In this document: one piece after another, positions 54,650 through 64,000 of the stretch
How the letters are laid out: each line of letters begins with the position of its first letter
Numbering within the stretch: the first letter of the stretch is position 1
Assembly: GCA_005116745.1 (NCBI GenBank)
Contig: SWDS01000010.1
Location: forward strand, 504,552-568,551
Reading direction: 5' to 3'
Origin: Nitrospira sp.
GTDB taxonomy: Bacteria > Nitrospirota > Nitrospiria > Nitrospirales > Nitrospiraceae
Length of the DNA stretch: 64,000 nucleotides
Notes under the pieces: model-generated
What the model was told of the DNA's origin: nothing
The model's input: the letters and a program-made list of their open reading frames with translations, nothing else
Databases searched by the model: none
Translations under genes and position numbers: made by a program

Positions 54650-55291
54650 TCATCCAAGCGCGGCCTCGACCACCATTTTCACTCGTTCTCGCGCGCGGTG
54701 CAACCGTACATAGAAGTTCGTTTCAGAAATCTTGAGTTGCCGACACACCTCTATGGTGTGTCGGCCCTGCACATCGCGCAGCATCAGGACTTCCTTCTGA
54801 GGAGTGGGCAAGGTCTCGATCGCGTCCCACATACAGGCTGTGGCCTGCCTTGATGCTAGCAGCTTCTCCGGAGTCCGGTCGTCCCGAAGATGCTGGGAGA
54901 ACGCTGCTGACCTGGCCCTCTCCCCGCGAGGTCTGAGTCGAGTGAGGTCTGGTTCGCCGCTCCAGGTCTCGGTTTCCCATTCGAAGTCTGAGAAGACTTT
55001 CTGCCGTTTCTCTCGGATGCCTCGATCTTTCGCCTTGTGGATGAGAATCGCACAGATCCATGCATAGAGGGACGATCGACCTTCGAAGCGATTCAGCCCG
55101 CGCATTACCGCCATCCAGGTCTCCTGCACGACTTCCTCTGCCGTTGCTCGATTGGCTACATAGCGCAGAGCCATTCGGATGAGTGTTTCTTGATAGTGGG
55201 TGACGACGACCGCAAATGCTTCTTCTTCCCCTGCCCGCAGTTGTGACACAAGCCGATCCTCATTGTTCATCAAACGGGAGACGTTGTTCAT
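54650..55291 (-). CDS. ECF-family RNA polymerase sigma factor, no adjacent anti-sigma
   Basis: A 213-residue sigma factor. Region 2 shows ANRATAEEVVQETWMAVMRGL and FEGRSSLYAWICAILIHKAKDRG; region 4 shows LPTPQKEVLMLRDVQGRHTIEVCRQL. Start ATG at 55291 chosen; 55270 is the alternative. No anti-sigma gene lies next to it, so regulation must be elsewhere. It sits between a two-component pair and the palindrome region. Confidence 0.9.
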   Translation of the reverse strand: MNNVSRLMNNEDRLVSQLRAGEEEAFAVVVTHYQETLIRMALRYVANRATAEEVVQETWMAVMRGLNRFEGRSSLYAWICAILIHKAKDRGIREKRQKVFSDFEWETETWSGEPDLTRLRPRGERARSAAFSQHLRDDRTPEKLLASRQATACMWDAIETLPTPQKEVLMLRDVQGRHTIEVCRQLKISETNFYVRLHRARERVKMVVEAALG

Positions 55292-55651
55292 AGGCGATGT
55301 CCTGCTCGTCGGTACAGCAAAAGAAATCGAGCCTGTATGCCTGGTCACGTTTGTCCTCATACTCTTCCTCCGGTCTACGGTCGCCTTCGACGCCTGTCTT
55401 CCAACACAGATGTTCCGAAAAAGTTAATCGATCCAGCATTCATCCGTGAAGGCCGATGATGGACTCATCGGTATATTCGCAAACAATGATCAAAAAACCT
55501 TCACGAAATCATGATGTCTTCGTCACAGACTGATCGCTTTTTGGATACACGGCTCTGCGATCACGCCATGGCTCAGCAGAAAACGCGGCTTGTCCGTGTG
55601 AGATGAGTGAAGAGGACAAGGACGGGAATATGTGATATGTAACCGGAAACT
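55292..55651. other. Intergenic region upstream of the orphan sigma gene
   Basis: About 360 bases between the sigma gene start and the stop of the histidine kinase gene. Should hold the sigma promoter. I saw no strong hairpin, repeat or RNA gene. Confidence 0.35.
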
Positions 55652-57196
55652 CTACCTGTGGGGTGAGTATTCTGTTGCTACTCTAGCTGCCGGCAGGACG
55701 CTCGGCTGGGCAACTGCGAGGTGAAAGGAAAAGGTCGTCCCTTGATTGACGGCACTCTGTATCTCAATGGCGCTTCCATGCAGCTCTAGAATTCGCTTCG
55801 TGATCGCGAGCCCGAGCCCGGCCCCTTTGTCATAACTTTGATGTTTCTTCCCGACTTGATAGTACCGGTCAAAAACATGCGGTAGGTCTTCCGGTAGAAT
55901 ACCGCAGCCGGTATCCGTGATCCGTGTCATGATCTTCTCGCCCATGCGGCTCAGGACCACCGTGATCCGTCCCTCTTGTGGCGTGTATCTGAGGGCATTC
56001 TCAATCAGGTTTTCGAGAACCCGTTCGATCAGTCCGATATCAGCTGAGACAAACGGAAGATCTTCACCCAGCGTTGCCTGAAGCGTCATCTGTTTGGCTT
56101 CAACAGCCAATCGAAACTTTTGAACGACGTCCTGCACCAGTTCACTCAGTGAAAACGATTCGATACGAGGCTTCATTTCCTGCGAATTCAACTTGGCGAG
56201 TTCAAACAGTTCCGCAATCAGATCTCCCAGCCGTTTGCTTTGTGCCGTGGCAATTTCCAGATACCGCTGTCGCTCTTGAGACGAGAGCGTGCCTTCCTTT
56301 AGCAGTAAGGTCTCAAGATAGCCCTGGAGGCTTGTGACGGGGGTGCGCAGATCATGTGAGACATTGGCCACCAATTCCCGCCGCAACTGATCGGTCTCTT
56401 CCAACTGGTGCACTTGTTGACGAATGAGCTCGGCCATTCGTGCAAAGGTCGTCTCCAGCTGATCAATCTCATCCCTTCGCCCGGCTGCAGATGGTCGAGC
56501 ATCCGAGTGAGACGAGACATTCGGTTGTGCTGAGAGTTCCTCGCGCCTGAAGGAGTCCATTGCCAAGGCCAGGGAGTTGAGCCTTCGCGTTAAGAGTTTC
56601 AAACAGAGCAGCCCGGCGAGGAGGGTCAGTACCAGGATGGCCCCGACGGTCCATATACTCAACCGGAGAATATAACTCTCTTTCAGCATCTGCATGACCG
56701 AATCGAACTCCTCCCCGCCCACGATGATGTACAGATAGCCCTCGATGGAACCTCCCAACGTCTCAATCGGAAAAACAGAAAATACCTTCTGACGCGTGAG
56801 ATCACGTGGGTCATCCCCAAGAATAGGGAAGTCCTCGGCACCAGACAGGAAACGCTGGAGTGGATCGAGGGAGATGTGCTGTCGTTTGACCTTCTCAGGG
56901 GGAGCCGAAAAGGTCAGAATGGTACCCTGAGGATCAAGCAGATATAGTTCAATACTGGGATTGATCACCATGAGCTCGTGAAAGATTTCCTTCAGCACCG
57001 CGTCATTGGCTTGCCCCTCCTGCATCAGGACTTTGTCGGACACTATCCGCTCGGCTAAGGTCCGGTTCAGCTTCTGACTGCCTTCCTGGAAGTATAATTG
57101 AGTGGCATAGAACGTGAGTATGATGGCCACGGCGCCGATCACGCAAAAGAGTCCAAAAAGAACGGTCGCTAACTTTCCATACAGCGTGTTGAACAT
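55652..57196 (-). CDS. Membrane sensor histidine kinase, PhoR-like
   Basis: A 514-residue kinase with TM1 (about 8-30), a periplasmic sensor (about 31-180), TM2 (about 180-203), HAMP, HisKA box ANVSHDLRTPVTSLQGY, HATPase N box LENLIENALRYTPQ and G boxes DTGCGIL and GAGLGLAITK. The layout resembles the PhoR/VicK kind without PAS. It stops before the sigma gene and starts 3 bases after the regulator gene at 57200, with which it surely works. Confidence 0.93.
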   Translation of the reverse strand: MFNTLYGKLATVLFGLFCVIGAVAIILTFYATQLYFQEGSQKLNRTLAERIVSDKVLMQEGQANDAVLKEIFHELMVINPSIELYLLDPQGTILTFSAPPEKVKRQHISLDPLQRFLSGAEDFPILGDDPRDLTRQKVFSVFPIETLGGSIEGYLYIIVGGEEFDSVMQMLKESYILRLSIWTVGAILVLTLLAGLLCLKLLTRRLNSLALAMDSFRREELSAQPNVSSHSDARPSAAGRRDEIDQLETTFARMAELIRQQVHQLEETDQLRRELVANVSHDLRTPVTSLQGYLETLLLKEGTLSSQERQRYLEIATAQSKRLGDLIAELFELAKLNSQEMKPRIESFSLSELVQDVVQKFRLAVEAKQMTLQATLGEDLPFVSADIGLIERVLENLIENALRYTPQEGRITVVLSRMGEKIMTRITDTGCGILPEDLPHVFDRYYQVGKKHQSYDKGAGLGLAITKRILELHGSAIEIQSAVNQGTTFSFHLAVAQPSVLPAARVATEYSPHR

Positions 57197-57199
57197 GTC

Positions 57200-57916
57200 C
57201 TACCGTTCAGACCATTCTTCGGAAAAACTATAGCCGACTCCCCACACGGTTAGAATGTACCGAGGCCGGCTGCTATCATCCTCGATTTTAGCCCGCAGCC
57301 GATTAATGTGGGAATTTACGGTATGTTCATATCCTTCGTGTGAGTACCCCCACACGGTATCTAAGAGTGCGGCACGGGTATAGACCTGGCCAGGGTGTTG
57401 GGCAAAGTGGAGCAAGAGGTCAAACTCTTTGGCCGTTAACTCGATCGATCGACCGCGCAGCTGAACCTTTCGTTTATCAACCTCGATCACGAGGTCGCCT
57501 GCGCGAATGGTGAGGGGCTTGGCGAGAGGAGCCTGTGCACGAAGCGCGTCCATACGCCGAAACAAGGCTTTCACTCGTGCAAGAAGCTCCAAGATGCTGA
57601 AGGGCTTGGTGAGGTAGTCATCTGCACCGACTTCCAGGCCCAACACCAGATCCAGTTCTGTCGATTTGGCTGTGAGCATCAGGACAAGACTGTACTTCGA
57701 TGAGGCGCGCAGTTTTCGGCACACTTCTAGTCCATCCATTCCAGGAAGCATCAGATCGAGAATGATCAAGTCATAGGACTTGGCAAGGGCCTGCTGAAGT
57801 CCTGCTGGACCGTCCTGTGCCACATCGACTTCATACCCTGTATCGCGCAGATGGAGCTGCACTAGCTGGGCAATGTCAGGATCATCTTCAACGACAAGAA
57901 TTGTACGAGACGCCAT
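57200..57916 (-). CDS. OmpR/PhoB-family response regulator
   Basis: A 238-residue regulator. Receiver: VEDD pocket, Asp in LIILDLMLPG, Lys in YLTKPFSI. Winged helix: LTAKEFDLLLHF, HTVNSHINRLRAKIE. The ATG at 57916 has GGAGAAG ahead of it; the open frame upstream crosses palindromes and is not coding. Partner of the kinase at 55652. Confidence 0.94.
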   Translation of the reverse strand: MASRTILVVEDDPDIAQLVQLHLRDTGYEVDVAQDGPAGLQQALAKSYDLIILDLMLPGMDGLEVCRKLRASSKYSLVLMLTAKSTELDLVLGLEVGADDYLTKPFSILELLARVKALFRRMDALRAQAPLAKPLTIRAGDLVIEVDKRKVQLRGRSIELTAKEFDLLLHFAQHPGQVYTRAALLDTVWGYSHEGYEHTVNSHINRLRAKIEDDSSRPRYILTVWGVGYSFSEEWSER

Positions 57917-57964
57917 ATCTTCTCCAGCTTGTCCACCGCCAACCAATTGACAATGACCTACCCA

Positions 57965-58000
57965 GCGTCCGTGCGAGTGATCCAGTACTCGCACGGACGC
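57965..58000. repeat. Perfect 14-bp hairpin upstream of the regulator
   Basis: GCGTCCGTGCGAGT, an 8-base loop, then the exact reverse complement. It lies about 50 bases before the regulator start on the minus strand. It may stop transcription from the propeller gene or shape the leader. Confidence 0.6.
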
Positions 58001-58012
58001 GACCGTCCTCAG

Positions 58013-58050
58013 CCACGGAGAGGCCCCGCCTACACGGGGCCTCTCCGTGG
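58013..58050 (-). terminator. Perfect 16-bp hairpin, probable terminator
   Basis: CCACGGAGAGGCCCCG, loop CCTACA, then the exact reverse complement. It follows the stop of the propeller gene (58083) by 32 bases on the minus strand. No T-run, so it may be a Rho-independent-like or protective stem. Confidence 0.6.
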
Positions 58051-58082
58051 TCCTGAGACTAGGGACCTGATGGCGCGAGCGG

Positions 58083-59192
58083 TTATCGCGCAATAAGTCC
58101 ATTGGCCCCATTAGGGAGGCCAGAAACGCCAGTCCCTTGGGTCAAACGCCCATTCCAACGATTGACCCGAAAGACCTCAAGGGAATCGGATCCTGCATTC
58201 AGCACATACAAGAACCGACTGTTCTTGTTCAATGCCATGTCAATGGGGCCAGCCCCGGTGGGCGTTGCCACCGCTTCCTGTAACGTGAGCCGCCCCGCAC
58301 CTCCCACTCGATAACTGGAAATGTTGTTACTGCCGGTATTACTGGCATACGCAAACTTTCCATTTTTAGTAATCACGATCCAGCACGCGGCCGATTGGGT
58401 GGTGCCGATCGACCCGCTCCGGACGTTCAATTGTCCATCGCGTAGGAGGTACGACGAGACGGCCGATGCATTCGGTGCGCCTCCGAAAGCCTCACTGACC
58501 ACCAATACCCCTCGCGGAGTAAAGGCAAAGCCAAACGGGGTTTGGCCGTTGGATCTCTGTGAAACCGGCGCAGATGCTACACCGTCCTCATCCACCGCAT
58601 AGGTGTCAATGATGTTTGTTGCTTTTTCTGTCACGACCAGCGTATCTCCCGAGAGATTGAACGAGATTTGCGCCGGCGCGGTGTTGGCCCCACTGAGCGG
58701 CTGATTCGAGCCAGCGATCGGCTTCAGCTTGTTGTTCTGCGTCAGCTCGAACCCCGCAATATTGCCCACCCCCGGCCCTCCTGCATTTAATACATAGACA
58801 TAATCCTCATGCGTGGCAACGCTGATAGGGCTGATTCCCCCGGAAGACACTCGGTCTACCAGCTTCAGGGAACGTCCGTTGATTTCGAACACTGAGATAT
58901 CATTACTGCCAGGATTCACGACTAAAAGGGCATCGCCATCACCGCTGAAGGCGAGGGCACCTTGATTACCCAGTCCACCTCCTGACCCCTTTCCCCCTGT
59001 GGGAAACGATCCAGCAGGAACCAGGGTGTCTCCATGCTGCCTGAAAATCAAGACGGCATTGTCGCCTGTCTGATTCGACATGGTGTAGACCGTTGGCCAT
59101 TGCCATTCATCGTTGGCGAATACCGAGCCGGTCACCCACCCGGAAAGAGTGATCGCCGTTGCCAGCGCACCCATGATCAATTTACGTATCAT
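58083..59192 (-). CDS. Secreted YncE/lactonase-type beta-propeller
   Basis: A 369-residue protein with a signal peptide ending GSVFA and repeating propeller blades (LVVNPGSNDISVFEI, VYVLNAGGPG, FAYASNTGSNNISSY, LYVLNAGSDSLEVF). It resembles the 6-phosphogluconolactonase-like and YncE families, but being exported it is unlikely to do the sugar-acid step. It may bind DNA, glycans or proteins. No operon partner. Confidence 0.78.
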   Translation of the reverse strand: MIRKLIMGALATAITLSGWVTGSVFANDEWQWPTVYTMSNQTGDNAVLIFRQHGDTLVPAGSFPTGGKGSGGGLGNQGALAFSGDGDALLVVNPGSNDISVFEINGRSLKLVDRVSSGGISPISVATHEDYVYVLNAGGPGVGNIAGFELTQNNKLKPIAGSNQPLSGANTAPAQISFNLSGDTLVVTEKATNIIDTYAVDEDGVASAPVSQRSNGQTPFGFAFTPRGVLVVSEAFGGAPNASAVSSYLLRDGQLNVRSGSIGTTQSAACWIVITKNGKFAYASNTGSNNISSYRVGGAGRLTLQEAVATPTGAGPIDMALNKNSRFLYVLNAGSDSLEVFRVNRWNGRLTQGTGVSGLPNGANGLIAR

Positions 59193-59435: not shown

Positions 59436-60194
59436 TTAGCGAGCTTTCATAAACACAATATCGCCGTAGTAGGCGGTGGCTCGTTCCTTCGTGTTATCCG
59501 TATCGCTCATGATGGCAATGCCGTTGATCATCGGCGGCTCTTCTCCAAAGGCCTTCTTGTAATCTTCGTAGATGTTACGGGACTCTTCGATCCAGGTATC
59601 GAGTTTTTGTGGCCCGCTCTCAACCACCACCATTTTGACGAAATCCGTATAAGCATTGTCGATAATCGCCCCAACGGGAGCCTTGGTTTCCCACACGTAA
59701 TTGATGGCTCCGATCGGAATATCTCCAAACAGAGCTTGGCCTGCCTTGTACTTGAGCTTCTTGCCGAAACTGACCTTGTCCGGGTCATATTCAAAGGTAA
59801 TATAAATCCGGGCCGGATAGTCGTCCCCGTCTTTTCGCGTGACATCGCTCTTCTGGAGTAAATTCTGAACCTTCCACCGCCATCGCACGATCGGAAAGTT
59901 CTTCGGATCGATCCTGATTTCCTTGGTTAAGCCGGATGCCGATGCATCGCTCGTGGCCTTGACGACTACTTGCGCCTCGTCTTTCACCAGTTCGTACGTC
60001 GTCAGCTTCGGAATCTTCTTGAAGGTCAACGGCTTCCAGTCGTCCGGCAAACTCGTGCCCGGTTCACTTGCGGAAAATTTCCCCACCTCAAGCACAGCAC
60101 TGCCCTCTGCCCGCGCGGAGGTGACCGGCAACAGCGCGCACAACATGACCAGCATGGATGCCAACATATTCCGTCTCATTGTGTGAGTCTTCAT
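59436..60194 (-). CDS. Secreted DUF3047-family protein
   Basis: A 252-residue exported protein (signal ending SARAE). The DUF3047 pattern is visible: an ITFEYDPDKVSFGKKLKYKA middle, NYVWE, and VVVESGPQKLDTW followed by a GIAIMSDTDNT end. Function unknown; probably a beta-sandwich that binds a ligand. The ATG at 60194 (MKTHTMRR) fits the signal peptide. It is divergent from the P450 gene. Confidence 0.85.
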   Translation of the reverse strand: MKTHTMRRNMLASMLVMLCALLPVTSARAEGSAVLEVGKFSASEPGTSLPDDWKPLTFKKIPKLTTYELVKDEAQVVVKATSDASASGLTKEIRIDPKNFPIVRWRWKVQNLLQKSDVTRKDGDDYPARIYITFEYDPDKVSFGKKLKYKAGQALFGDIPIGAINYVWETKAPVGAIIDNAYTDFVKMVVVESGPQKLDTWIEESRNIYEDYKKAFGEEPPMINGIAIMSDTDNTKERATAYYGDIVFMKAR

Positions 60195-60504
60195 ACTACC
60201 GTTTCCTCCACGCACACAGCTCGTTATATTGTCGAACACTCATTAGGTTTCTTACAGCCTAACCCATGATTGCGGTGATTGTTCAGCGAGGCATTGAAAA
60301 GGAGATCTATCCCCCAAGCGTAGATTTTGGTAACACTATCGGATGCAGGGGTGACAATACCAGTGAGGCAAGCCGTGACAGATCGTGCACTTTCCAGTAC
60401 GGAGAACATCACCACCGCATATTCCAGATAGACGCAGCGGCGAGCAAGTTTTGGATTGCCGCATCAATTGTTCAGCACTCAGAACTCCTCCGAGAAAGAG
60501 AAAG
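60195..60504. other. Divergent intergenic region
   Basis: About 310 bases between the DUF3047 gene (minus) and the P450 gene (plus). Presumably two promoters. No RNA gene, repeat or clear hexamer pair was seen. Confidence 0.35.
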
Positions 60505-61713
60505 ATGGATAAGGCACAGTGGAATGAGTGGTTGGTGTATCTCCTCAACCGACCCCTTGCTTACGGACTCCTGGAGTTATCACGACGCCTTGGAGATGTC
60601 GTGTACTTGCCGCGCATTGGCCACGTGATCAGTGATGCCGAGATCGCTCTCGACGTTCTGATGGACACCGAGCACTTTGATTCTCATTCCCCTGGTAGCC
60701 TGGGTTTTCTTGTGACTCAGGCGCTTGGGCCGTATGCACTTCTCAACATGGACGGACCAGAGCACAAGGATCTGAAGCGAAGGCTGCAGGAGGTATTTTC
60801 GTCGAAATATATTAAAGCGCTTATCGGGTCGGCCACGAATGACATCGTGAATGAGTTCCGAGGGAATCTGCTAGCCGGACGAATGGTTGACGTGGTGGAG
60901 TTTATGAAGGACTTCTCGAGCCGGATGGCTTGCGAATTGATCGGGGTCAGGGTCGACCCACATAATGAACGAGGGGTCTATGCGGATATGTTTACCCTGG
61001 CCACCGAATTCACTGCTCTGGCCGGTCTTGGTAAGCCCAGACTATCTGCAAGCGACCTGAAGAACGCAACGCGGATTGTCGAGCAACTGTCGGCACATAT
61101 CCTGGAAAGTTATGAAGACAAGGATATTCGCGACGAATCGCTGACTCAGCAAATGCGATCTCACGGGTTCACGTTTGAAGAAGCGAAGGGCGTGGTGATC
61201 ATCGTGATGATTGGTGCCACAGAACTCATCACCTACGGCATGCCGCGAGTTCTCACGCTATTGGTTGATTCCGGGCAAATTGAGAAGCTACGCGAGAAGC
61301 CTGAGCTGCTTGAGCGGGCCGTCGATGAAGGCTTTCGACTTGTGACGCCGTCCAACGTCGTCCTTCGCGCCGTAGTAGCTGATTGTCAGATTCGCGGCCA
61401 TCACTTTCGCAAGGGAAGACGGGCGCTCATCGTCTTTAACAATATGATGAAACAAGAGAAACACTTTCCCAATGCGACTCGCTTTGACATTGAACGCGCG
61501 ATCGATTCACGATTTCGCCGTCTCCCTTTTGGAGCCGGCGCCCACACCTGTCTAGGGACAGGCCTCGCCATCGCCGAAGCTCGTAAAGTACTTGAGGCAC
61601 TGATGTCGGTTGAGGGCGAATACGAAATCCTCAGCCGCCGGTACAACCGCGGTCAGACCTACCCTGGCTACTCATCCTTGCTCATTCGGGTGCGGCGGCC
61701 ACGTCTTCCATAA
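60505..61713 (+). CDS. Cytochrome P450
   Basis: A 402-residue soluble P450. The haem-binding loop FGAGAHTCLGTGLA gives the thiolate Cys-349, and the K-helix ExxR is in DEGFR. The I-helix reads GATELIT where most P450s have an acid followed by Thr (E/D-T), so the Thr is replaced by Leu. That can mean unusual oxygen activation or a peroxide-using enzyme. Start ATG at 60505, behind GAGAAAGAG. No ferredoxin partner is adjacent. It converges with the methyltransferase gene, with stop codons 5 bases apart. Confidence 0.93.
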   Translation: MDKAQWNEWLVYLLNRPLAYGLLELSRRLGDVVYLPRIGHVISDAEIALDVLMDTEHFDSHSPGSLGFLVTQALGPYALLNMDGPEHKDLKRRLQEVFSSKYIKALIGSATNDIVNEFRGNLLAGRMVDVVEFMKDFSSRMACELIGVRVDPHNERGVYADMFTLATEFTALAGLGKPRLSASDLKNATRIVEQLSAHILESYEDKDIRDESLTQQMRSHGFTFEEAKGVVIIVMIGATELITYGMPRVLTLLVDSGQIEKLREKPELLERAVDEGFRLVTPSNVVLRAVVADCQIRGHHFRKGRRALIVFNNMMKQEKHFPNATRFDIERAIDSRFRRLPFGAGAHTCLGTGLAIAEARKVLEALMSVEGEYEILSRRYNRGQTYPGYSSLLIRVRRPRLP

Positions 61714-61717
61714 CTGA

Positions 61718-62641
61718 TCAGTCTTTCCGAAGGACTACGGCCATATACATGGTTTGGCCTGACTCAAGCTCATACCGCATCGCCGTACCTTCCATCGCAT
61801 AGGCGCCGCGCGCGAAGGTCTTGAACGGACCTCTGACTCGTCGTTGAAGCAAGTCCAACTTCCGCCCCTCGTCCAACTCGAGTGCGCGAACCACATTGGC
61901 GGTAATATCCTCTTGCCTCAGAAGCCGTAATGAGCTTTCCGCCAGTTCAGCCTGCATACGTTCCAGGGCACCTCCTCGTCGTGAGGCAAAGCCTGCAAAG
62001 AGGAGTTCTCCTCCAGGCCGAAGCACACGATACACCTCCGACAGAAAGCGTGGGATTGAACGATAGCAGTGGGCACTCTCAATGTTGAGCACAACATCGA
62101 AACTCAAAGCCTCAAAAGCAAGATTCTCCGCGTCTCCTTGTACATACTCCAGCCCTGTGTCTGTTTGGTGATGTGCACGTGCTAACGTTGTGGCACTTTG
62201 AGAGATATCCAGCGCAATGAACGTCTTTGGTTTGAGGGTCCGTGCGAGGTAGGCCGCGCCGCCTCCGCGTCCGCTACCAATCTCGATCACATCAAGGTCG
62301 GTTAGCCTATCTCCTCGCGATCCCAAGGTAGCCACATATCTGTAGAGTTGTAACGCAAAGCGTTCCGTGTCATGGAGTCCGACGCTCTGGGGATGCTCAT
62401 CGGACCCCAGTTCCGCATAGCCATAGTTCATGGTCGTCCACTCGCCAAATGGATAGCGCCGCGCAAGATACTCGTAAAGCAGGCGTGAGCCAATACGCTT
62501 AGCCTGTCCAGCAACAAGGCCATGACCGCGCGCACCAGTCACATAGCGCCAGGGGTGAAGCGCACTAGAGGACATGCGTTTCAACCACGCACAGGCTGTT
62601 TGAGGAGTATGGCTCGCACTGGAAGGTGAGTTGTGACTCAT
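61718..62641 (-). CDS. SAM-dependent methyltransferase
   Basis: A 307-residue class I methyltransferase. Motif I is VIEIGSGRGGGAAYLA, then FIALDIS, then a DVVLNIESAHCY block and a YRVLRPGGELLFAG motif, as in phosphatidylethanolamine- or natural-product-type methyltransferases. It is 69 bases downstream of the ketosynthase gene and on the same strand. The acceptor is likely the ketosynthase product, which is an inference. Confidence 0.88.
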   Translation of the reverse strand: MSHNSPSSASHTPQTACAWLKRMSSSALHPWRYVTGARGHGLVAGQAKRIGSRLLYEYLARRYPFGEWTTMNYGYAELGSDEHPQSVGLHDTERFALQLYRYVATLGSRGDRLTDLDVIEIGSGRGGGAAYLARTLKPKTFIALDISQSATTLARAHHQTDTGLEYVQGDAENLAFEALSFDVVLNIESAHCYRSIPRFLSEVYRVLRPGGELLFAGFASRRGGALERMQAELAESSLRLLRQEDITANVVRALELDEGRKLDLLQRRVRGPFKTFARGAYAMEGTAMRYELESGQTMYMAVVLRKD

Positions 62642-62710
62642 AGATTTGAAACCAACAGGCTAAAACATTAATCGCGTGACACAATCTTTTCAGACATGGG
62701 CAATGACCGT

Positions 62711-63781
62711 TCAGTGTTGATACACAAATCCACCAAACAAGAATTTGCTCGCTTCGGCGCCCAATATGAGAACGCGTTGCCCTTTTTTCAGGTTCCCAGA
62801 TCGGCGTAGCAGATCGAGACTGACCCAAATCGCCGCTGACCCCAGATTCCCCAGTTTGTCCGCGGTGACATAGATCTTCTCTTCGGGCACGTCAAAGTAT
62901 TGGCTGAAAAGATGGGCCAGATGTCCATTGGCCTGATGGGGCAAAATCCAATCAAACTCCCCCAGAGAATGTCCGCGTTGCACCATAGCCTCGACGCCAC
63001 GCACGAACAGCTCTCCCCCATGCTCTCGCACGGTTTGCACGTGATGTCGAAACACAGGCACCTGCATGCTGCACTGCGGCTGAGAAGACCCCCCGCCTTC
63101 AATGAAGAATCCTGGTTCCCGCCCAAGACCAATCTGACCGAGAAAGATATGAGAGATGATCTGGTCCTCAGATCCATCGTCCTGCCCAACGACCACAGCG
63201 CCGGCGCCATCACCCATCTGGACGTAATTCACGAGTTGTTCATTGCTAAGAAACGCATCGGACATGCCAAAATACGGAGACCCGGTTTCACTTCCGACAA
63301 TCGCGATTGCCTGAAGGGCGTTTGCGGCTGCCATTGCCGACGCGATCTGCAACCCGTTGGCAAAACCAGTACATGCCTGACGCAGTTCCAGATAAGGACC
63401 CGTGTACTGAAGCTCGTCGGCAACCCACGCGATATTGGGTGGCAAAAGGGTGTGAGGGGATGATGTATGGCCAATAAGGTAATCGACCGAAGCGATGTCG
63501 ATTCCCGCTTCCACCATCGCTTCGAAAAGCGCAGCGTGGCACAACTGCGGCGCCTGCATGGTGATACGTGTGCCACTGAGTGGAACGTGTAAATCGCGGC
63601 TGACATGACGATGGGTGATCCCAAGCCGATAGGCAATACTTCTGGCACGTCGCCCCGCGCGAGGATGGCAGGCGCTCTCCAGCGCTTCACACAACGTTTC
63701 ATTGCTGACCGGAGGCCCCGGCAGGCTCCGACCAGTACCGAGCAGCTTCAGGCGTTTCGCCGCAAAGTGCGCAGCCGTCAC
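62711..63781 (-). CDS. 3-oxoacyl-ACP synthase III-like ketosynthase
   Basis: A 356-residue FabH/KAS III-type enzyme that condenses two acyl units. The Cys-His-Asn triad is complete: Cys-137 (RQACTGFANG), His-282 (LPHQANGHL) and Asn-312 (KLGNLGSAA). It starts with GTG at 63781, overlapping the stop of the upstream gene. The context (methyltransferase, P450, diiron protein) fits a lipid or natural-product pathway rather than basic fatty-acid synthesis. Confidence 0.92.
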   Translation of the reverse strand: MTAAHFAAKRLKLLGTGRSLPGPPVSNETLCEALESACHPRAGRRARSIAYRLGITHRHVSRDLHVPLSGTRITMQAPQLCHAALFEAMVEAGIDIASVDYLIGHTSSPHTLLPPNIAWVADELQYTGPYLELRQACTGFANGLQIASAMAAANALQAIAIVGSETGSPYFGMSDAFLSNEQLVNYVQMGDGAGAVVVGQDDGSEDQIISHIFLGQIGLGREPGFFIEGGGSSQPQCSMQVPVFRHHVQTVREHGGELFVRGVEAMVQRGHSLGEFDWILPHQANGHLAHLFSQYFDVPEEKIYVTADKLGNLGSAAIWVSLDLLRRSGNLKKGQRVLILGAEASKFLFGGFVYQH

Positions 63782-64000
63782 AGCGCTCCCCTCTTGATAC
63801 GAGCAAATAACAAGCCCGCGTCTATGCCAATATCCTCAAAGGAATCGGCCACGTTCTCAAGCATGCGTGTCAGGCCGCCACGAACGAGTTCCCCCAAGCG
63901 CGAATAGTCATCACGGGAAAGGCCCAAGGCAAACGCATGTTGGCGGCTGATCGATACATGCCGTGCTTCGTCCTGCCGAATGCGTTCAACCAGCCGACCA
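63778..64000 (-). CDS. Ferritin-like diiron protein (C-terminal fragment)
   Basis: The last 73 codons of a gene cut by the window edge. The visible sequence contains RIRQDEARHVSISRQH, a typical EARH-type iron ligand motif of ferritin-like diiron proteins such as N-oxygenases and acyl desaturases. The stop TGA overlaps the GTG of the ketosynthase gene. The family member cannot be named from this part. Confidence 0.65.
   Translation of the reverse strand, partial: GRLVERIRQDEARHVSISRQHAFALGLSRDDYSRLGELVRGGLTRMLENVADSFEDIGIDAGLLFARIKRGAL

Follow-up and report, generated by a model that had tools for sequence, protein, structure and literature searches.

The closest described relatives of the genes reported here are spread over several systems. 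Ketosynthase III (KSIII) enzymes of the FabH and OleA/PqsD/StlD types share a fold family and a Cys-His-Asn triad, the triad of condensing enzymes. Ferritin-like diiron hydroxylases such as COQ7 and the VlmB-like enzymes carry an E, ExxH, E, ExxH ligand pattern, and mycobacterial lipid tailoring and export involves phthiotriol dimycocerosate methyltransferase, the methyltransferase Mtf2 and MmpL proteins. Here, we describe a gene cassette at the right end of a 64,000-nucleotide stretch of Nitrospira sp. DNA (assembly GCA_005116745.1, contig SWDS01000010.1, positions 504,552 to 568,551), which is the whole stretch analysed and is called the window below. It combines a KSIII, a diiron-type protein, a methyltransferase and an MMPL-family exporter with a cytochrome P450 (P450) and a YHS-domain lipoprotein. 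Nitrospira are key nitrite oxidisers and, to our knowledge, their specialised metabolism has been little described. Among the open-licence papers on such clusters or on Nitrospira specialised metabolites and lipids, we found none on this cassette.

The likeness to the described systems is partial. The cassette KSIII has the fold family and the triad of the FabH and OleA/PqsD/StlD types, but scores far under the cut-offs for FabH (102 of 292 bits with TIGR00747 and 117 of 249 bits with PRK09352) and for StlD/DarB (67.5 of 450 bits with NF005293). The diiron-type protein has a ligand pattern like that of COQ7 and the VlmB-like hydroxylases, although its matches to them are sub-threshold and its fold is unconfirmed. 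As in the mycobacterial systems, the two best NCBIfam models of the methyltransferase are both lipid methyltransferases and an MMPL-family exporter lies in the locus; in contrast, the methyltransferase stays under both cut-offs (phthiotriol dimycocerosate methyltransferase, 184 of 300 bits; Mtf2, 176.6 of 400 bits) and the block has no type I polyketide synthase.

Outside the genus, the nearest KSIII in the collections searched (Nitrospirota genomes, one pattern-based scan of genome contigs and a plasmid collection; relatives elsewhere may exist) is 42% identical and is found on Streptomyces clavuligerus pCLA1. It has the same RQACTGFAN motif and a near-identical HTxSPHTLLPPN motif, with oxygenases alongside and an MMPL transporter nearby, as in the cassette. 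The pCLA1 cluster (L022:18829-29094), unannotated in the collection used, reads desaturase, KSIII, luciferase-like monooxygenase, ketoreductase/acyl carrier protein (KR/ACP), ketoacyl-ACP synthase (KAS), fatty-acid hydroxylase, PAP2 and MMPL. It differs from the cassette in that a desaturase and a membrane hydroxylase replace the soluble diiron protein, in having the KR-ACP, KAS and luciferase-like enzymes, and in that none of the open reading frames compared matched the cassette P450 or methyltransferase. This KSIII neighbourhood supports a lipid or polyketide role. Another KSIII, 30% identical, shares its cluster with ACPs and a fatty acyl-AMP ligase.

We propose, with a probability of about 0.55, that the Nitrospira genes form a horizontally exchanged accessory cassette whose proteins make a modified acyl or short polyketide lipid and export it. 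The KSIII would condense or transfer an acyl thioester from host fatty-acid synthesis, the diiron protein would oxidise the acyl chain and the P450 would add a further oxidation. The methyltransferase might then cap the oxygen left by the P450, or another nucleophile, and the MMPL/RND protein with the YHS lipoprotein would move the product to the outer envelope. The gene identities, the catalytic residues, the overlapping genes, the lateral exchange and the joint loss of the P450 and methyltransferase genes are direct observations; the reactions, the sequence in which they occur and the class of product we infer from them. Being small, intact and laterally swapped, and having natural variants without the tailoring pair, the cassette offers a tractable means of linking genes to a strain-specific envelope lipid or signal.

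Gene content and operon structure

The source genome (3.86 Mb, 32 contigs) was read at this locus in L002 positions, to which 59948 is added to obtain the window coordinates used here. G234 and G036 are two of the genomes compared.

59436..60239, minus strand: DUF3047 protein with an apparent signal peptide (PF11249, 1.1e-79)
60295..67282 (window part 60295..64000), no strand: block exchanged relative to G234 (blastn identity; empty site in G036)
60505..61713, plus strand: cytochrome P450, ATG at 60505 (Pfam p450, 1.4e-23; EGFR as ExxR; heme loop FGAGAHTCLG)
61718..62641, minus strand: class I S-adenosylmethionine (SAM) methyltransferase (Methyltransf_11, 3.4e-21)
62711..63781, minus strand: KSIII (ACP_syn_III_C, 2.1e-15; ACP_syn_III, 1.2e-11; Cys137-His282-Asn312)
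63778..64536 (L002:3830-4588; 3' part, 63778..64000, in the window), minus strand: probable ferritin-like diiron protein, 252 aa (conserved residues)
64533..66812 (L002:4585-6864), minus strand: MMPL/RND exporter (PF03176, 7.6e-20)
66812..67264 (L002:6864-7316), minus strand: YHS-domain lipoprotein (NF041384, 154 bits, cut-off 70)

A first-pass annotation of the window had placed P450, methyltransferase, KSIII and diiron-type genes at its right end, and all four are real and conserved, the first three with Pfam support. The overlap that it reported between the KSIII gene and the stop of the diiron gene is also present: the GTG start of the former (63781) and the TGA stop of the latter have four bases in common, GTGA. 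Past position 64000, where unrelated genes would have spoken against a pathway, the operon runs on into the genes of the MMPL/RND exporter and the YHS lipoprotein, with overlaps of 4 bp (diiron/MMPL) and 1 bp (MMPL/YHS). The three overlaps therefore indicate one operon, and a flank made of an exporter and a lipoprotein strengthens the pathway reading. An FAD oxidoreductase gene comes after the lipoprotein gene. The KSIII, diiron and MMPL genes are adjacent in all four KSIII-bearing genomes, with the three frames open in each of them. The P450 gene is convergent with the remaining cassette genes and shows the least stable linkage of all members.

The KSIII is a member of the thiolase-fold ketosynthase III enzymes, with PF08545 and PF08541 over cut-off. 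Its triad, described as complete at first sight, is indeed invariant (Cys137, His282 and Asn312 in 4/4 copies). The closest PDB entry is 5by7, and PqsD, StlD and DarB are among the relatives of the protein. The same genome encodes two further KSIII proteins, only 26-27% identical to that of the cassette (tblastn; one over a short stretch). The exporter carries an MMPL domain (71.6 bits for a Pfam cut-off of 20.5) and falls far below the model of the hopanoid transporter HpnN (64.2 of 751.85 bits, TIGR03480).

The diiron label is supported by the residues and not by the profiles. E74, E107xxH110, E145 and E190xxH193, the ligand pattern of a ferritin-like diiron protein, are kept in 5/5 aligned sequences, one of them a plasmid homolog that is just 28% identical, while no significant match was obtained in Pfam, NCBIfam or PDB. 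The sub-threshold matches included COQ7 (E 0.088) and a VlmB homolog (E 0.23), and a PDB profile search with five diiron sequences returned only sub-threshold hits, the best being DR2231 (E 0.097). An AlphaFold model from four close orthologs was helical, with a pLDDT (35.8) too low to use. On its conserved residues, the gene probably encodes a ferritin-like diiron protein. The Piscinibacter plasmid homolog (30%) is surrounded by unrelated plasmid genes and therefore informs ligand conservation, not context.

These data bear on an explanation in which the locus has no small-molecule product of its own: the KSIII would serve as an acyltransferase that modifies the envelope, and the diiron protein would be of a ferritin-like type used in storage or stress. 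In its favour, ACP or extender-unit genes are lacking and ferritin-like folds serve diverse functions; the Cys-His-Asn triad, however, is typical of condensing enzymes and the diiron and KSIII genes overlap by 4 bp, and we regard this explanation as very improbable.

Distribution and lateral exchange

Cassette-type KSIII genes were found in 4 of the 79 Nitrospira genomes and in 3 of 395 genomes sampled across the phylum, all of them Nitrospira (1 of 169 genera). The methyltransferase is present in 3/79 Nitrospira genomes, one copy being broken, and the P450 ortholog in 2/79; 15 more genomes matched at E 1e-6 or better, with distant P450s only. Of 245 genomes of the phylum, four gave a match to the diiron protein, one of which was rejected (G191; E 7.8e-4, 64 aa, 2 stops), none of the cassette genes being nearby. 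The pattern-based scan of genome contigs gave two named records with the locus, Nitrospira sp. UBA2082 and Nitrospira isolate 8_1_Oct_SF_Bin54.

Compared with G234 by blastn, the cassette forms a block of 90.4% identity over 6991 columns (60295-67282), while the adjoining pieces reach 79.1% and 77.8%. This block begins about 210 bp upstream of the P450 ATG. Synonymous divergence (dS) follows the same limits: the six cassette genes show a dS of 0.20-0.29 with G234, versus 0.65 to 2.1 or saturation for six flanking genes. With G027, the values are 0.17-0.35 for KSIII, diiron, MMPL and YHS and 0.60-1.01 for six flanking genes. By its flanks, G036 is a closer relative (dS of 0.02-0.39 for six flanking genes, its DUF3047 gene being at 1.0), and its site is empty, DUF3047 adjoining the FAD oxidoreductase without the cassette. 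The sharp identity edges, the low dS inside them and the empty site in G036 therefore identify the cassette, some 7 kb long, as laterally exchanged.

The DUF3047 copy of the window has a dS of 0.21 to the cassette-side copy of G027, of 1.0 to the G036 copy and of 1.75 to the second G027 copy; beside the P450 gene of G234, DUF3047 is absent. DUF3047 thus seems to move together with the cassette in G000 and G027. No integrase was found in the sequence stretches examined, and integration may possibly have occurred through recombination at DUF3047. The G027 cassette lies between two DUF3047 genes of the same orientation and of different age (L010:7395-8396 and L010:14157-14996), the second being older, an arrangement that suggests such a recombination.

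The P450-methyltransferase pair

In two of the KSIII-bearing genomes, the P450 and methyltransferase genes are both absent or broken. In G027, a deletion has left some 40 bases of the 3' end of the P450 gene, and three indels shift the frame of the methyltransferase gene; in G285, the methyltransferase gene is unrecognisable past its first codons, which remain as a start remnant, and neither gene was found elsewhere in the assembly at the thresholds used. The two genes are therefore kept together in 2/2 genomes and lost or broken together in 2/2, as expected of an oxidation followed by a methylation. Where intact, both have a ratio of nonsynonymous to synonymous divergence (dN/dS) of 0.11-0.13. 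This pattern, in four genomes of which some are drafts, suggests a dispensable tailoring pair. In G285, the cassette remnant (L018:4195-10542) adjoins genes that were not observed at the usual location, perhaps an assembly artefact given the 6% contamination of this genome.

The joint loss also bears on whether the locus holds two unrelated neighbouring units, an operon of YHS, MMPL, diiron and KSIII (with or without the methyltransferase) and a convergent P450 with a role of its own. The P450 gene does run the other way and has an upstream region to itself, and it is missing from two of the four genomes that keep the core. However, it falls within the same high-identity block relative to G234, and it is absent where the methyltransferase is broken or gone (2/2) and present where the latter is intact (2/2), which makes two separate units unlikely.

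The protein is a P450 by its FGAGAHTCLG and EGFR motifs and by PF00067 (83.8 bits for a cut-off of 22.8). The lack of the usual I-helix Thr, reported in the first-pass annotation, was recovered in all four MAFFT modes used: GATELIT places its Glu at the acid position, where 21 other P450s have 17 Glu, 3 Asp and 1 Ala, and its Leu at the alcohol position, where they have 20 Thr and 1 Ser. The usual AGx[DE]T acid-alcohol pair is thus reduced to its acid, and a one-residue deletion follows a few residues past the Leu. The comparison was made without L028, which has no open reading frame with a heme motif, and without the fragments, incomplete frames or duplicates L021, L029, L030, L031 and L039. 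Natural exceptions to the acid-alcohol pair exist, the pair being usual and not obligatory; P450 membership therefore stands, and the loss of the Thr alone is not remarkable. The G234 ortholog, 94% identical, starts at the same ATG and has the same GATELIT motif, with a dN/dS of 0.11, so the altered I-helix does not result from decay. The P450 has an altered proton-relay site and is clearly under purifying selection.

Loss of the I-helix Thr in studied P450s goes with uncoupled oxygen activation or another reaction type, according to PMC9112060 and PMC10750395. The same papers describe CYP152 peroxygenases, which replace the acid-alcohol pair, and engineered Thr variants with shifted chemistry. 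Like such P450s, the cassette protein misses the I-helix hydroxyl, but it differs from them in that the Glu stays, Leu stands for Thr and the region is one residue shorter. In an alternative register, gap-free downstream, Thr would take the acid position and Glu the alcohol position, which would resemble the engineered Thr-to-Glu variants in PMC9112060; it was rejected, as two pairwise alignments and all four MAFFT modes gave Glu-Glu. A bolder proposal, which we consider improbable, is that this P450 has a rebuilt oxygen-activation site and, rather than being an ordinary hydroxylase, uses peroxide or catalyses a dehydrating or coupling reaction; together with the methyltransferase it would then add a removable decoration to an undescribed exported Nitrospira lipid.

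The AlphaFold model of the P450 has low confidence (pLDDT 58.8, pTM 0.59) and a P450 fold. Its best Foldseek matches were P450BioI-acyl-ACP complexes, and the matches also included natural-product P450s such as CalO2, StaP and AurH.

Nature of the product and neighbouring genes

The last matches would also suit a diffusible signal or antibiotic, for which the KSIII would make a beta-keto or ring-forming head group, the diiron protein, P450 and methyltransferase would tailor it, and the MMPL protein would act as an efflux pump. The patchy spread and lateral exchange suit such a specialised metabolite, as does the presence of PqsD, StlD and DarB among the KSIII relatives. On the other hand, the block has no cyclase, ligase, ACP or regulator, and the methyltransferase is most like lipid methyltransferases. 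We therefore see a diffusible molecule as a tentative possibility, less probable than the exported lipid.

Several points weigh against the exported-lipid pathway itself. The cassette has neither an acyl-activating enzyme nor an ACP; the KSIII stays below cut-off with all curated NCBIfam models that it matched; the diiron gene evolves fast (dN/dS 0.33-0.47), and the fold of its product is unproven. The P450BioI matches rank barely above unrelated P450s, in a model with a pLDDT of 58.8. Finally, G027 and G285 are drafts, the latter with 6% contamination, and their losses may partly be assembly error. The exported-lipid pathway nevertheless remains our preferred reading. The general class given at first pass, a compact lipid or natural-product pathway, is still the best reading, but the locus is larger and more mobile than this implied, and two of its members, the P450 and the methyltransferase, seem to be optional. 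What we add is the exporter and the lipoprotein, together with the mobility and the co-loss.

Over the window, an Rfam search gave no match, and scans found 2 promoters (5.0 in shuffles, i.e. fewer than expected) and 9 terminators (6.4 in shuffles, i.e. slightly more). A match to the FAD oxidoreductase in G145 (L046, C1:1981820-1983430) contains one in-frame TGA in the search translation. The genes to the left of the cassette (window 54650-59192) are syntenic in G036 and G027; they encode a sigma factor, a histidine kinase, a response regulator and a lactonase-like beta-propeller protein.

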